The notes under the pieces were generated by a model. It made no database searches. It was not told the DNA's origin and saw only the letters and a program-made list of their open reading frames with translations. This document shows positions 1,776 through 31,010 of a stretch of 55,319 nucleotides of DNA, piece after piece (within the stretch, counting starts at the first letter, position 1; every line of letters starts with the position of its first letter). Origin of the DNA: a virus; IMG/VR virus record IMGVR_UViG_3300036835_000046, positions 1-55,319 of that record. One strand, given 5' to 3'. Both the position numbers and the translations under genes were made by a program.

Positions 1776-1791
1776 CCCCACCATTGACAAG

Positions 1792-1850
1792 TCGGGCAGG
1801 CATGCCCGAATCGCGCCCACCATTGGCGCGACCGTCCCTGAAGCCGGGAC
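1792..1850 (+). terminator. Three tandem hairpins after first gene
   Basis: TCGGGC/GCCCGA (1792-1809), TCGCGCC/GGCGCGA (1811-1831) and GTCCC/GGGAC (1834-1850) follow each other with almost no spacing. There is no U-run, so this is a structured 3' end or processing/attenuation element rather than a classical intrinsic terminator. Confidence 0.4.
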
Positions 1851-2656
1851 GCTGACGAACCCTAACGGGTGACTTGTCAGACATAACCTCGCGGTGAGCG
1901 CGCTAGGCGCGCTAATGAGCACCACCATTGCTCCCGCGTACTCCAGTCGCATAGGAGTGACACCAGGGATGACATGTCGGCAAGCGACCGCTGTTGTCAT
2001 GGCGTGGGATGACTTCCCATTGTCACTACTAACGCACTCCGCGCCACCATAGGCGTGCGTACATATCCGTTCACATGTCACTATGGACATGGTTCACATA
2101 ACGACTTGATCTCGCGGTCAATCCTAGTAGCCGCTGTCAACTGAGTCTGCACTTTGATGGTAAGTCATGTTGACAGTCTGCGAGCTACACACCGACTGCA
2201 AGCGCTCCTTCTACAGTGAACCCCCCGGAATGACGAGTCAGGCCCCGCAGCTACAACAGCGGATACCATGGGGCAATGGCACTGACAATGTGACTCCCCG
2301 CAGGGAGAAATAAGCTCGGATGACAGTTGTTACTGACTGTCAACCATAGTGTCCGATTAGGTGGAAGTGGCGTGTCCCGCTTGCACAAGTAGCTCGGGTG
2401 GCATTGTGGTGCTAGTAATTCGATGCCCGCTGACAGTGCGATTGACAGTGTACGGCGCGATGGCCATGGTCTGAGTGAGGTAGGGAAGACGGTGCAAGTA
2501 GGCCGGAACCTTAGCCTGAGCGGGGAGCTTGAATGCGGCAATCATGCTGACATGTTCAACTGCCAATACCAAGGTGTTGCAGAGTCAGAGCCGCTAGCGG
2601 GAGTCAGTGGACATGCCTCATAGTCCTGCCCGCGAACTGGTACTAGAGAGGCGTCT

Positions 2657-3336: not shown

Positions 3337-3591
3337 ATGAGCAACTCCTACAACACTGACAGTCCGGCGCTGGCAAGCGCTGCCGCACTGGCGCGCATGA
3401 TCGCCGCTGCCGCTGCCTTCCAGTCGGATGGCACTTTGCCGCCGCAGCGTCGGTCCTCCGACCACACGGTTGTCATCAATTCCGGCCACGTCGCCTTCAA
3501 TGGCGCGACCGAGCCGCCCGCTGGCCACCGCGACTGGGATCACATCCGCGCCCAGGAGCCGCAGCCGCTCGGTCCCTGGAGCCACTGCTAG
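3337..3591 (+). CDS. Hypothetical protein (84 aa)
   Basis: ATG at 3337 lies behind GGAGG. The protein has an Ala-rich helix (ALASAAALARMIAAAAAF) followed by a polar segment containing HTVVINSGHVAFNG. The INSGH pattern recurs in the next small protein (VINSGHKLF), hinting at a shared short module. Its stop overlaps a GTG that could start a longer version of the downstream gene. Function unknown. Confidence 0.65.
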   Translation: MSNSYNTDSPALASAAALARMIAAAAAFQSDGTLPPQRRSSDHTVVINSGHVAFNGATEPPAGHRDWDHIRAQEPQPLGPWSHC

Positions 3592-3725
3592 TGCTCCCTG
3601 GACTGTCCTACGGTGGCAACTCACTTGCCGCCCGACTCGGCTACTACGCCGACCCTGACGTTCGCAACCCCGGCCTGATTCTGGCCACCGACCCCGACCA
3701 CACTGTCAACAAGGAGAACACCGGA

Positions 3726-3860
3726 ATGAGCATCGAGCGCACCGAGAAGAACGGCCAGCAGGGCTGGCAGGTCATCAACAGCGGCCACAAGCTGTTCGCC
3801 GCCTACGGCGTCGGCAGCAAGCGCCGCGCGCTGGCCTACATCGCCGCCCGCAAGGGCTAG
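3726..3860 (+). CDS. Small basic protein (44 aa)
   Basis: ATG at 3726 is chosen because AAGGAG sits 9 bases upstream. The same frame extends back to a GTG at 3591 that overlaps the previous stop, giving an 89-residue alternative with weaker support. The short form begins MSIERTEKNGQQGWQVINS and ends in a basic helix (GSKRRALAYIAARKG). The INSGH motif is shared with the preceding protein. Function unknown. A strong hairpin follows the stop. Confidence 0.6.
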   Translation: MSIERTEKNGQQGWQVINSGHKLFAAYGVGSKRRALAYIAARKG

Positions 3861-4475: not shown

Positions 4476-4649
4476 ATGCTTGGCTTCGCCATCTTCACCT
4501 CAATCCTCTGGGGCAGCGGTGGAACGCTGCTCTGGCGGATTGGCAAGGCGCAGGACGCACGCAAGGCCGCTGAGCGGGCAATTGCCAAGGTCGATGACGA
4601 CCTTGCCCACGCCAGCCGCTACCAGAATCGCCTAATCGGCAAGGAGTAA
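4476..4649 (+). CDS. Small single-pass membrane protein (57 aa)
   Basis: ATG at 4476 is used because AAGGAG lies at 4459-4464, 11 bases upstream; the in-frame GTG at 4464 overlaps that site. The N-terminus MLGFAIFTSILWGSGGTLLW is a membrane segment, followed by a charged helix (DARKAAERAIAKVDDDLAHA) predicted to sit in the cytoplasm. Anchor plus coiled coil is common among phage inner-membrane effectors; the function is not known. Confidence 0.65.
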   Translation: MLGFAIFTSILWGSGGTLLWRIGKAQDARKAAERAIAKVDDDLAHASRYQNRLIGKE

Positions 4650-5501: not shown

Positions 5502-5684
5502 ATGCACATGCTCGTCAATCCGCCGATCAACTCGATCTGGGAGGACACCACCCTCGAAATCACCTACCAAGTCAAGGCGATTGGCAAGGACTACATCCTT
5601 GTCAACTGCCAGCACAAGAGCCGTCGCTGGACGGACGGCATCGACGTGAGCCTGTTCAACACCGAGTTGACTCCCGTCAACTAA
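5502..5684 (+). CDS. Small hypothetical protein (60 aa)
   Basis: ATG at 5502 behind AAGGA (13 bases); an in-frame ATG at 5508 is an alternative. Beta-rich composition (WEDTTLEITYQVKAIGKDYI) followed by a basic segment (HKSRRWTDGIDV). It resembles in length and pattern the first 80 residues of the next gene (a short beta domain with VRIKT/GINTV strands), so the two may be distantly related. Function unknown. Confidence 0.6.
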   Translation: MHMLVNPPINSIWEDTTLEITYQVKAIGKDYILVNCQHKSRRWTDGIDVSLFNTELTPVN

Positions 5685-5718
5685 CCGTACAACTTCGACC
5701 CCGAAAGCTGAGAACAAC

Positions 5719-6948
5719 ATGGTTGCCAAGGATGTGTCGGTCGGCCTGACTTACAACGTCATGGTCAGCGACAAGATCGTGCCGGTGCGCCTGACTGGCG
5801 AGTGCCCCTACGGCGGCTGGTACGGCATCAACACTGTCACTGACCAGAAGGTCAGGATCAAGACGGCGGGACGCCTGCGCGAGCAGGTCATCGTCAACTC
5901 GGACCACCGTGGCCAGACGGACTCTGGCAAGATCACCCCGATTCAGGAGAGCAACACCGTGAGCACCACCCAGACCCCCACCGTGACCGCCGCCGACCGC
6001 CGCGCCAAGCGTGCCAAGTCGGCCAAGGTGACGGCCCCCGAGCCGGACGGCCCCAAGATGGCCGACGTGCCCGCCAAGCCGCCCGTCGCGGTCAAGCCGA
6101 CCGCCGTCAAGTCGGCTGCCAAGAAGACGACGGCCAGCAAGCCGACCGTAGCCAAGAAGACGGCTGCCAAGTCGGTGGCCAGCAAGCCCGCGAGCAAGCC
6201 CGCTGCCGCCAAGTCGGCGGCCAAGCCCACCCCTGCCAAGCCCGCTGCCAAGAAGGCGGCTCCGGCCAAGCCGACCGCCAAGGTGACGGTCAACAAGGAC
6301 ACCCCCACCGACAACTCGGTGGACATCGACAAGCTGGCGGCGATGGTCGTCGCCAAGCTCATGCAGGACAACAACGACAACAACAAGGAGAGCAACACCG
6401 TGCCCACCCGCAAGATCAAGGGCGGCAACGCCGCCGCCAAGAAGTCCACGACCACCCGCTCGACGGCCAAGCCCGCCGCCAAGCGCTCGACCGCCAAGGT
6501 CGCTGCCAAGCGCTCGACCGCCAAGGTCGCTGCCAAGCCGACGACGGCCGCGCCGTCCGTCACCGTCAACGACGACGGCTCCGTGACCGTCATCCTGACG
6601 GCGCTCAAGGAGACGCCGAACAAGTTCCAGTTCGGCCAGCCCAAGGGCACCGCCAACCCGCTGGTCACCGGCTTCTACGTGACCAAGGAGGGCATCGACG
6701 CGCTGGTCGCGGCGACCGACGAGGACGCCGACGCGGTGCTGGAGTTGACCTACGAGCCGCACGGCGGCAACCAGCCCAAGCACTCGACCCGCTGGGACGA
6801 GCAGCACGGCAACGACTCCCCGGCGTCCACGCTCTACCTGATGAACGCGGCGCTGTCCTCGCTCGGTGCCAAGGAGGGCGACAAGATCAACGCCGACGTG
6901 GCCATCGAGGGCGACAGCAGCATCGCGCTGACCCTCTGGGTCGCCTAG
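5719..6948 (+). CDS. Histone H1-like Ala/Lys-rich protein with internal in-frame starts (409 aa)
   Basis: Three parts are visible. Residues 1-80 are a small beta-rich domain. Residues about 81-280 are two Ala/Lys/Thr/Pro-rich tails with KKTAAKS-type repeats like bacterial histone H1 tails, split by an acidic helix (VDIDKLAAMVVAKLMQD). Residues about 280-409 form a folded C-terminal domain (SVTVNDDGSVTVILTALKE). Codon 81 (GTG at 5959) and codon 228 (GTG at 6400) are each preceded by the same GGAGAGCAACACC, a ribosome-binding site at good spacing, both in frame. Shorter products of 329 and 182 residues are therefore likely, or the gene is a fusion of three. DNA binding is inferred from composition. 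Confidence 0.75.
   Translation: MVAKDVSVGLTYNVMVSDKIVPVRLTGECPYGGWYGINTVTDQKVRIKTAGRLREQVIVNSDHRGQTDSGKITPIQESNTVSTTQTPTVTAADRRAKRAKSAKVTAPEPDGPKMADVPAKPPVAVKPTAVKSAAKKTTASKPTVAKKTAAKSVASKPASKPAAAKSAAKPTPAKPAAKKAAPAKPTAKVTVNKDTPTDNSVDIDKLAAMVVAKLMQDNNDNNKESNTVPTRKIKGGNAAAKKSTTTRSTAKPAAKRSTAKVAAKRSTAKVAAKPTTAAPSVTVNDDGSVTVILTALKETPNKFQFGQPKGTANPLVTGFYVTKEGIDALVAATDEDADAVLELTYEPHGGNQPKHSTRWDEQHGNDSPASTLYLMNAALSSLGAKEGDKINADVAIEGDSSIALTLWVA
5944..5961 (+). promoter_or_regulatory. Internal ribosome-binding site and GTG (site 1)
   Basis: AGGAGAGCAACACC-GTG inside the 409-residue gene, in frame. Repeated almost exactly at 6385-6402. Confidence 0.5.
6385..6402 (+). promoter_or_regulatory. Internal ribosome-binding site and GTG (site 2)
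   Basis: AAGGAGAGCAACACC-GTG, in frame with the 409-residue gene. It would start a 182-residue product with one basic tail plus the folded C-terminal domain. Confidence 0.5.
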
Positions 6949-7023: not shown

Positions 7024-7416
7024 ATGAAGAATGTCCGTATTGCCCTGCTCGTCGGTGCTGGTGCCCTGCTGATCGGTGCGGTCGGGCCGTGGGCCTCGAT
7101 GCTCGGTGTCATCAACGTCGGCCCGACGGCCAACGGTGAGACGGCCGCTGTCGTGTTCGGTGGCGCTGCCATCCTGGCGGTCAGCGCGTTCACCCTGCGT
7201 GCCACTCGCGCGATCTCGATCAGCGTCGGCCTGCTCGCTCTGGCCGAATCGATCTACACGCTCGTCAAGATCGCTGACATCAAGTCGAGCGCCGGTGAGT
7301 TCGGTGGCCTGATCCAGCCGGGTTGGGGCGTCTACCTCACTGTCATCGCCGGTCTGTACCTCGTCGTCTCGACGTTCGTCGTCAAGCGCACTGGCAACGT
7401 GCCGGTCGCCGCGTAG
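7024..7416 (+). CDS. Four-helix membrane protein (130 aa)
   Basis: ATG behind GGAGA. Four hydrophobic segments are visible at about residues 6-26, 40-57, 65-84 and 102-122, with a basic N-terminus (MKNVRIALL) and short polar loops; the first loop carries GPWASMLGVINVGPT. The layout matches small actinobacterial integral membrane proteins. It may alter the host membrane or be a holin-like accessory, but the canonical lysis genes are at 35.8-37.5 kb. Sits with the exported protein that follows. Confidence 0.7.
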   Translation: MKNVRIALLVGAGALLIGAVGPWASMLGVINVGPTANGETAAVVFGGAAILAVSAFTLRATRAISISVGLLALAESIYTLVKIADIKSSAGEFGGLIQPGWGVYLTVIAGLYLVVSTFVVKRTGNVPVAA

Positions 7417-7887: not shown

Positions 7888-8148
7888 ATGTCTGCACCCC
7901 TGATTGACGACGGCACCTACGAGCCGCGTACGCCGGAAGATGGCACCGACCTTGACTATGCCAGTCTGCATGGAGTCGAGTGCCCGACCTGTGGCAGCTT
8001 CCCGATGGGACAAGGCTGCTACCACATCTGCCCCAACTCGGTGTGCTACTACAGCCCCGAGCAGGAGAAGGCCGACGACCCCTGGTACGGCATGGACGAT
8101 CAGCGCGAGCGTTACGCTGGCGAACTGATCGGCCTAGAGGACAACTGA
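7888..8148 (+). CDS. Zinc-ribbon protein (86 aa)
   Basis: ATG at 7888 follows AAGGAGA; an upstream in-frame ATG at 7798 lies in the hairpin region and is rejected. Residues about 30-55 carry CPTCGSFPMGQGCYHICPN, a four-cysteine/histidine zinc knuckle. The rest is acidic. It starts a dense run of overlapping small genes (7888-10161). Likely a protein- or nucleic-acid-binding adaptor; the exact role is unknown. Confidence 0.7.
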   Translation: MSAPLIDDGTYEPRTPEDGTDLDYASLHGVECPTCGSFPMGQGCYHICPNSVCYYSPEQEKADDPWYGMDDQRERYAGELIGLEDN

Positions 8149-9583: not shown

Positions 9584-9991
9584 ATGCACTGCGTCATCAA
9601 CCAGCACGGCGTGGCCTGCCTGATCGACACCGAGACGCGCTGCCGTGAGTACGCCGACAAGTTCGGCGGCACCGTTCACCTCTACGTAAGGACAAGCAAC
9701 ATGACACAGCCTCAGTTCAGCATCGGGGACCGGGTGTTCTCCCACTACACCAAGAACACCGCCGCCGGGGTGAGCGGGTGGGGAACCATCGCTCGCATTG
9801 ACACCACCTACCGTGACCAGAAACACGGTGTCACCGGCTCGCCGCTGCCCGACACCACGTGGTACGAGGTCACGTCCGACGAGGGTGCCACGCACCTGCT
9901 GGACGACGCCCACGGCAACTGGGACATGGCCCGCATCGTGCCGCCGCACATCGCCATGCGCTACGGCTACGGACCCGATCCCAAGCCGTAA
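9584..9991 (+). CDS. Hypothetical protein with a conserved-looking core (135 aa)
   Basis: ATG directly abuts the previous stop. A second in-frame ATG at 9701 has AAGGA at 9 bases and begins MTQPQFSIGDRVFSHY, so two products or a 96-residue main product are possible. The C-terminal 90 residues are an SH3-like beta domain with a block GNWDMARIVPPHIAMRYGYG that resembles, from memory, small proteins of other actinobacteriophages. Biochemical function unknown. Confidence 0.65.
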   Translation: MHCVINQHGVACLIDTETRCREYADKFGGTVHLYVRTSNMTQPQFSIGDRVFSHYTKNTAAGVSGWGTIARIDTTYRDQKHGVTGSPLPDTTWYEVTSDEGATHLLDDAHGNWDMARIVPPHIAMRYGYGPDPKP

Positions 9992-27529: not shown

Positions 27530-28966
27530 ATGAGGCATAAGCCTCTCGTCATGGCGGCTGTGACAGCCGTGATGACAATCGGATCGGCGGGGGTGGCCAA
27601 CGCGCTCCCCGGCGACCGCGCCGTGTCGGACCTCAGCCCCTACCGGCTGAACGATCACACGCTGGAGCCGGGTTGCTTCGTCAACTCGTACCGGCTGCCG
27701 CAGTCGATCCAGGACCACCTCGACCTGTCCCTGCTGGATGCCGGGACCATCGGGGAGGATCTGCACGTGTCGGTGGACACCGGGGCCGATGCGTCGGTCG
27801 ATCAGGTGCTCGTCGCTGACAACGTGGGCTACAAGGTCTACAACACGTTCGACACCGGCACGATCAACAACGACCCTGACATCGATCCGGGCCAGACCGG
27901 CACCGGCATGAACGGGTTCACGGCGCGCGGCACCACCAGCACCCGCGACACCATCGTCTGCGTCTCCGACCACGGCGATGCGGGCCAGAACGAGCCGTAC
28001 CAGCAGGAGGCCGACGGCATGGTGTCGGCCAAGAACCGGCCCATCCTGTCACCCAAGGTGACGGCGGTCGGCGTCTCGGCCATCACGAACCTGAAGACGT
28101 TCAAGGTCGGGTTCGGGTACGACACCGAGCGGTGGTACAAGGTCCCGACGTACGACGGCCACTCGGCCTTCGCCAACGTGACCGACCCCAACGCCTTCCC
28201 GTCGCCGGTCTTCGGTGACAGCCGTCTGCCGCGTGTGGTGGACCTGTTCCCCCGTCAGGGTGGCAACGGGGTTTCCACCGACCCGGCCGACTTCACCTAT
28301 GACACCCGGCGTGTCAACGACTTCGACTCGTCGCGCGAGCCGTGGGCGTTCGGTGATCCGTTCGACGGTCAGACCGCGTTCTTCAAGCAGGACGGCGACG
28401 ACACCGCCTGGACCGACACGGCGACGACCAACAACGGGCTGTTCAACCTGCTGGCCACGCTGACCCAGGGCGACCTCCCGCTGTCCTGGAGCCTGCGTCC
28501 CTCGCTGGGCGCTCCGGACACCCTCCGGATCGGCACGTTCACACGTGACGACTACGACGCCTGGAACGCGGCGTGGCAGGCGTACTACAAGGGCGGCAAG
28601 CTGTGCGACGGCCCGGACGGCATGCGCGGTGTCAACGTGGGCGACCTCGGCTGCATCGTGCTCGTCCCCGGCACCAACTCGCCGGACCCGGACCAGAGCG
28701 TGACGGTCATCGTCAACCCACCTGTCACCCAGCCCGCGCCGACCCCGGCTGCCCCGGCCCCCGCTCCCATCGTGGTCAACCCGACCCCGGTGACGGTGCA
28801 GGCCCCGGCCGCTCCCGCGTCGGTCACCCCGTCGTCCGTGACCCACAAGGCCAAGGCGACGAAGACGCAGAAGAAGGCGTACGCCAAGTGCGTCAAGGCG
28901 GCTTCCAAGAAGCACGGCAGCAAGCACCGCAAGGCGCTCGCCAAGTGCCGCCGGATGCCGCACTAA
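27530..28966 (+). CDS. Exported protein with Pro/Ala linker and basic Cys-containing tail (478 aa)
   Basis: Sec signal peptide: MRHKPLVMAAVTAVMTIGSA with cleavage expected after VANA (residue 26). The mature domain (about 27-390) is Asp/Gly-rich with several cysteines (PGCFVNS, TIVCVSDHG, LCDGPDG, LGCIVL). Then a Pro/Ala/Val linker (PAPTPAAPAPAPIVV) about 60 residues long and a Lys-rich tail with KAYAKCVKAASKK and KALAKCRRMPH, a pattern common at the ends of actinobacterial secreted proteins. No enzymatic motif is recognised. It is the last rightward gene, has its own long leader and very biased G/C codons, suggesting high expression. It could be surface-exposed on the host or a virion part. 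Confidence 0.8.
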   Translation: MRHKPLVMAAVTAVMTIGSAGVANALPGDRAVSDLSPYRLNDHTLEPGCFVNSYRLPQSIQDHLDLSLLDAGTIGEDLHVSVDTGADASVDQVLVADNVGYKVYNTFDTGTINNDPDIDPGQTGTGMNGFTARGTTSTRDTIVCVSDHGDAGQNEPYQQEADGMVSAKNRPILSPKVTAVGVSAITNLKTFKVGFGYDTERWYKVPTYDGHSAFANVTDPNAFPSPVFGDSRLPRVVDLFPRQGGNGVSTDPADFTYDTRRVNDFDSSREPWAFGDPFDGQTAFFKQDGDDTAWTDTATTNNGLFNLLATLTQGDLPLSWSLRPSLGAPDTLRIGTFTRDDYDAWNAAWQAYYKGGKLCDGPDGMRGVNVGDLGCIVLVPGTNSPDPDQSVTVIVNPPVTQPAPTPAAPAPAPIVVNPTPVTVQAPAAPASVTPSSVTHKAKATKTQKKAYAKCVKAASKKHGSKHRKALAKCRRMPH

Positions 28967-30776: not shown

Positions 30777-30998
30777 TTACTTCTTCTTCCTGCCGCCCTT
30801 GTTCCACTTCCTCGCGTTGAGCGCGAAAGTGGCCCGCTTACGGGTCGTCGGGTTCTTGCTCCGCTTCATCTGCTGGAGCTTCTTGACAGGGATCTTGCTG
30901 CCCTTCTTGACCCTCGCCGTCTTGCGCAGCTTGCCCCTGTTGGCAGGCTTGATGTTGATCCCGCTCTTGCGCTTGCGGGTACTCCGCTTGCGTGCCAT
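30777..30998 (-). CDS. Extremely basic small protein (73 aa), leaderless
   Basis: About 45 percent Lys/Arg: MARKRSTRKRKSGINIKPAN, RGKLRKTARVKKGSKIPVKK, ending WNKGGRKKK. No acidic residues are visible. The ATG at 30998 is exactly six bases downstream of a -10 box TAGAAT (31010-31005), so it is probably translated from a leaderless mRNA. Function by composition: DNA or RNA binding, possibly packaged with or condensing DNA. Confidence 0.7.
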   Translation of the reverse strand: MARKRSTRKRKSGINIKPANRGKLRKTARVKKGSKIPVKKLQQMKRSKNPTTRKRATFALNARKWNKGGRKKK

Positions 30999-31004
30999 GG
31001 GGGC

Positions 31005-31010
31005 ATTCTA
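31005..31010 (-). promoter_or_regulatory. -10 box TAGAAT, leaderless arrangement
   Basis: TAGAAT-GCCCCC-ATG on the minus strand. A TTGCAG at 15-base spacing could be a -35. The same TAGAAT-N6-ATG layout occurs at 44076. Confidence 0.55.

Follow-up and report, generated by a model that had tools for sequence, protein, structure and literature searches.

The Lys/Ala-rich gene at 5719-6948

The DNA analyzed here (below, the window) comprises the 55,319 bases of a virus record, and the element in question is an open reading frame (ORF) at positions 5719-6948, which encodes a Lys/Ala-rich protein of 409 amino acids (aa) and carries two potential translation starts within its own frame. The protein consists, in order, of a small N-terminal beta domain, a first Lys/Ala-rich linker, a helix, a second Lys/Ala-rich linker and a C-terminal beta domain (table 1). 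A minus-strand ORF (5677-6807) overlaps the 409-codon gene, and is likely to be a by-product of G+C-rich coding.

An identical 17-nucleotide (nt) sequence, AGGAGAGCAACACCGTG, occurs twice in frame within this ORF. The sequence-only reading of this DNA had reported two internal copies of one motif, each directly followed by an in-frame GTG at the spacing of a real ribosome-binding site, and this was borne out: the 13-mer GGAGAGCAACACC has perfect matches at 5946-5958 and 6387-6399, GTG follows directly after each copy, and a Shine-Dalgarno (SD) sequence at initiation spacing is present before both GTG codons. These codons, at 5959 (codon 81) and 6400 (codon 228), share their stop with the full-length ORF, and computation of the products gave the same sizes (409, 329 and 182 aa) and basic-tail counts as had been stated earlier. 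True leaders of this phage have the same wording, for example AAGGAGGACACCACCATG at 2802, AAGGAGAACAGCAATG at 7888 and AGGAGAACAACAACCATG at 7024. No sigma-70-type promoter was found in the window between 5000 and 7500, and separate messages are therefore not indicated.

Table 1. Positions of the gene, its domains, its internal initiation sites and the products predicted from them (pI, isoelectric point; pLDDT, predicted local distance difference test; pTM, predicted template modelling score).
Feature	Position	Strand	Details
Full-length ORF	5719..6948	+	ATG start, 409 aa, pI 9.8
N-terminal small beta domain (residues 1-58)	5719..5892	+	
Internal initiation site 1	5945..5961	+	AGGAG (5945-5949), 9-nt spacer from GGAG to GTG, codon 81
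Nested ORF 2	5959..6948	+	329 aa, pI 9.9, begins MSTTQTPTVTAADRRAKRAK; linker 1, helix, linker 2 and C domain; predicted from site 1
Internal initiation site 2	6385..6402	+	AAGGAG (6385-6390), 9-nt spacer from GGAG to GTG, codon 228
Nested ORF 3	6400..6948	+	182 aa, pI 9.0, linker 2 and C-terminal beta domain; predicted from site 2
C-terminal beta domain, common to all three products	6559..6945	+	129 aa; modelled alone, AlphaFold2 pLDDT 75, pTM 0.68

An AlphaFold2 model of the full protein, made from a two-row alignment and of low overall confidence, comprises the N-terminal beta domain, disordered linkers that contain both internal starts, the helix and the C-terminal beta domain. Since the starts sit in disordered linkers, the shortened products would retain whole modules. 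Net charge is +20 for residues 81-200, +14 for residues 228-278 and -11 for the C domain. The earlier description of the gene as histone-like holds as a label for composition, because basic, Lys/Ala-rich disordered tails are present, but no nucleoid-protein family model was significantly matched; the Lys/Ala-rich protein presumably binds DNA.

Searches of Pfam, PHROGs and NCBIfam gave no significant match to the protein, and neither Foldseek nor a PDB sequence search gave a firm match for the fold of the C domain. A DUF1905- or AbrB-type barrel was considered for this domain, and was unsupported by family models, PDB sequence search and Foldseek; RPB8-type barrels, the top row of a VIA-align comparison (Z 5.4), were too weak a match and were not used. 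Sequences related to the N domain occur in Rctr197k_150 and, as a fragment at a contig end, in a Hydrogenedentota metagenome-assembled genome, in which no C domain was found. In virus Rctr197k, GCTATAAAGTGAGCCATG precedes several genes (L003:3983-4004, 4620-4641 and 5740-5761); this repeated motif resembles a promoter or leader and runs directly into the start codon.

Conservation and accessibility of the start signals

A homologue of the gene was found in G1 (G001; IMG/VR contig 3300036759_000025, 112,874 bp), which is syntenic with the window across much of its length and has large core proteins approximately 50-75% identical to those of the window. The G1 gene (L001:6001-7083) encodes 360 aa, is 38% identical to the window protein and has its parts in the same order. 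It also carries two internal sites: AGGAGGACACCAACATG with ATG at L001 6181 (codon 61), and AAGGAGAACACCGTG with GTG at L001 6550 (codon 184).

At site 1, the codons ATT CAG GAG AGC AAC ACC GTG of the window (IQESNTV) correspond to GTC CAG GAG GAC ACC AAC ATG in G1 (VQEDTNM), so that S, N, T and V are all altered while G1 retains the SD, a spacer of 9 nt and a start codon. The alignment is anchored 6-8 residues downstream by PTVTAADRRA(K/R)RAK, and by sequence comparison site 1 is clearly homologous between the two genomes. At site 2, NKESNTV in the window becomes PKENTV in G1, with spacers of 9 and 6 nt, respectively. Loss of GGAG with retention of the Glu-Ser-Asn-Thr codons, the pattern that would speak against functional starts, was looked for in G1, and the opposite was seen: SD and start were kept and the residues had changed.

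Among 57 gene pairs of the window and G1, 28 internal SD-start sites were followed, and seven had a counterpart. These were both sites in this gene (two of two, at a local identity of 0.29), two probable true starts, and three sites in protein that is 59-88% locally identical. In these two genomes, and with strict homology for site 1 only, conservation of the signals exceeds what protein identity explains, and the comparison supports selection on the start signals.

IMG/VR was scanned for further homologues directly, by alignment and by DNA pattern, and returned G1 alone. A scan of genome contigs yielded nothing beyond the Hydrogenedentota N-domain fragment, and a copy of the gene was not detectable in fetched relatives recruited via terminase, helicase and another conserved gene.

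How unusual the sites are was assessed by counting internal in-frame ATG and GTG codons with an SD match of at least 5 nt at a spacing of 4-11, in genes called by codon usage. The window contains 31 such sites (1.93 per 1000 codons; 0.95 in G1), and six of its other genes hold at least two, whereas the homologue is the sole G1 gene with two internal 6-nt SD sites. When low RNA structure was added to the SD match (minimum free energy (MFE) of 60 nt of at least -11), four internal sites were left in the 10,967 codons of the window, two of them in this gene, and three in G1, two of them in the homologous gene. The other two window sites that passed, at codon 46 of ORF 3591-3860 and codon 40 of ORF 9584-9991 (+), are strong, unstructured SD-ATG combinations that match SD-start sites of the G1 orthologues; the starts of these two ORFs were probably called too far upstream, with the true starts at codons 46 and 40.

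The MFE values at the four sites of the two genomes (-5.3, -9.2, -10.8 and -4.5 kcal/mol) all indicate less structure than the 95th percentile of internal ATG/GTG codons (-11.7 in the window and -11.3 in G1). Unpaired probabilities were 0.54, 0.61, 0.66 and 0.62, where the 95th percentile is 0.559 in the window and 0.566 in G1; accessibility therefore lies beyond this limit at three of the four sites, the first falling slightly below (0.543 vs 0.559). A threshold-free logistic start classifier, trained on one genome and applied to the other (area under the curve 0.88 for the window and 0.87 for G1), ranked the window sites 6 and 7 of 591 internal ATG/GTG codons (P=0.015), and the G1 sites 1 and 3 of 1162 (P=1.6e-4). 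All four sites also resemble the true gene leaders of their phages.

Probable nested isoforms and rival explanations

These data suggest, with a probability of roughly 0.7, that three in-frame starts and one stop give rise to nested isoforms of the protein, with 409, 329 and 182 aa (360, 300 and 177 in G1). The host ribosome would initiate at 5719 on a single message, and additional initiation would occur at 5959 and 6400 via ordinary SD pairing in unstructured linker RNA; use of these internal starts by the ribosome is what we infer from the signals. The output would be the full-length protein together with two N-terminally shortened forms, which keep the C domain and either one basic linker or both. 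The isoforms may then mix in a nucleic-acid-coating assembly, in which they would share the C domain but differ in how many basic tails they have and in whether the N domain is present.

Several observations weigh against this interpretation. The complete three-part architecture is known in two genomes only, and no homologue was detectable in G007, a more distant relative. Both internal starts in the window are GTG. Judged only by the strength of their SD, the window sites are ordinary, and two per gene is not unusual; SD strength was rejected as evidence within the window, which has internal sites of this kind at a frequency of about two per 1000 codons. The thresholds for SD match and structure were picked post hoc, when the sites were already known. 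Given the Q-E and K-E peptides in a G+C-rich genome, codon usage almost automatically forces an SD, and the argument from codon choice was given up, since codon usage accounts for the SD once the peptides are given; the evidence is therefore conservation and accessibility, not codon choice. Site 2 is equivalent in the two phages by order and distance to the end (182 vs 177 aa) only, and may not be strictly homologous. Its strict homology is in doubt because an amphipathic LxAMV helix lies upstream of it in the window (residues 203-220, 6325-6378) and downstream in G1 (L001 codons ~205-217); the helix would fall within the shortest product in G1, and not in the window.

Three other explanations were weighed against nested isoforms. 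The gene could be a fusion relic, in which three small adjacent genes with their own leaders lost their stops and merged in frame, so that the leaders are now mere linker codons. The resemblance of the internal sites to intergenic leaders of the window phage fits this origin, as do the predicted nested N-termini (MAAKPNAKPTVTAADRR and MSTTQTPTVTAADRR), which look like natural gene starts, the modular nature of the segments, and the N domain adjoining other sequence in Rctr197k_150. However, dead leaders should erode at 38% protein identity, and SD and start are intact at all four places, which are also among the best-ranked internal sites of both genomes; in the relatives searched, the segments were not found as separate genes, although the N domain alone was seen in another context. 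A dead relic is therefore unlikely, because the signals outlast deep divergence. Fusion is possible as the origin of the gene, and as such fits the nested-isoform interpretation, but as the entire account it is not favoured, since it leaves the intactness of the leaders unexplained.

Chance would require that, in a G+C-rich genome, the codons for Gln/Lys-Glu, the Asn/Thr-rich linker residues and Val/Met happen to produce an SD followed by a start. The linkers are of low complexity, and internal sites that reach a 5-nt SD match occur at ~1.9 per 1000 codons in the window and 0.95 in G1, which fits this explanation, but the coincidence has to be repeated in G1, where the equivalent positions encode other residues, and each time in highly accessible RNA, with top ranks at the P values given, which makes it quite improbable. 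It is also conceivable that the SD-like stretches pause elongating ribosomes between domains and thus aid folding, without being starts. Both stretches are indeed located at domain boundaries; pausing, however, does not depend on unstructured RNA or on a start codon spaced as for initiation, and the retention of GTG/ATG through a Val/Met exchange leaves this explanation very little weight.

Other conserved loci, known systems and implications

Comparison of the window with G1 also revealed a non-coding stretch of ~830-865 nt at 1776-2640 (+), directly after gene 1341-1775, with a counterpart at L051:18395-19225 (-). Its mean column identity is 91%, including a run of ~60 identical bases, far above that of the surrounding genes. 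RNAalifold predicted 246 pairs, 25 of them compensatory, a number reached by 0 of 500 shuffles and compared with 0-1 in slid structures; two sequences were used, and prediction and pair count were made on the same alignment. The stretch had no Rfam match, and searches of the isolated-phage collection and of 12 related records did not find it. It is a candidate for a new large structured phage RNA.

A 478-aa protein encoded at 27530-28966 (+) is 83% identical to its G1 counterpart, which exceeds the value for terminase, and has a signal-peptide-like N-terminus and a Lys-rich C-terminus; it matched no PHROG family and no isolated phage. A Lys/Arg-rich protein of 76 aa (30777-31007, -) contains IKPANRGKLRKTARVKKG and NPTTRKRATFALNARKWNKGGRKKK, and has close counterparts in G1 and G007 and similar ones in the distant records L129, L130 and L142.

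Proteins with Ala/Lys/Pro repeats and a basic disordered tail are known among the H1-like bacterial proteins (chlamydial Hc1, BpH1, and the tails of mycobacterial HupB and HBHA). The window protein differs from these by additional N- and C-terminal beta domains and by the lack of a significant family-model match. Serial in-frame internal starts produce the IF2 isoforms from infB of E. coli, and Nu3 of phage lambda is a nested C-terminal product within structural gene C; both resemble the nested arrangement predicted for the window gene, but the proteins differ.

In-frame embedded phage genes are already established. In mycobacteriophage Ms6, lysA contains the in-frame embedded lysA241, and both products have been demonstrated (PMC3111421). 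That gene encodes an enzyme and has one internal start, whereas the window gene has two predicted ones, in a basic low-complexity protein that is probably nucleic-acid-binding and is known from sequence alone. Other phage endolysins consist of two polypeptides from an in-frame internal start with a shared stop, the short form being the C-terminal part, and in some cases the long and short forms join one complex (PMC9430671, PMC4777826, PMC7098653); they are unrelated to the window protein, and again have one internal start rather than two. The archaeal CRISPR-Cas protein Cas11b is a small product of an internal in-frame start in a larger gene, and works in the same interference complex (PMC11899642). 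Its likeness to the window gene is the internal in-frame start, and no sequence relation is expected. The literature searched contained no basic, low-complexity phage protein from an undescribed family whose gene has two internal starts in series.

A single 409-aa protein is what gene callers give at this locus. If the nested starts are real, translation would determine both the charge of a nucleic-acid-coating phage protein and its stoichiometry. Tentatively, one gene could yield a chromatin-like phage protein in three graded, nested isoforms, with their ratio set by three ribosome-binding sites, the tails and N domain varying per subunit on a common C domain, and selection at the RNA level keeping the starts while the protein drifts. 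The test used here, i.e. retention of an internal SD and start despite residue change, together with RNA accessibility, is applicable to any related phage pair. If the interpretation is true, further isoforms may hide in other low-complexity basic proteins, which are poorly handled by sequence searches.
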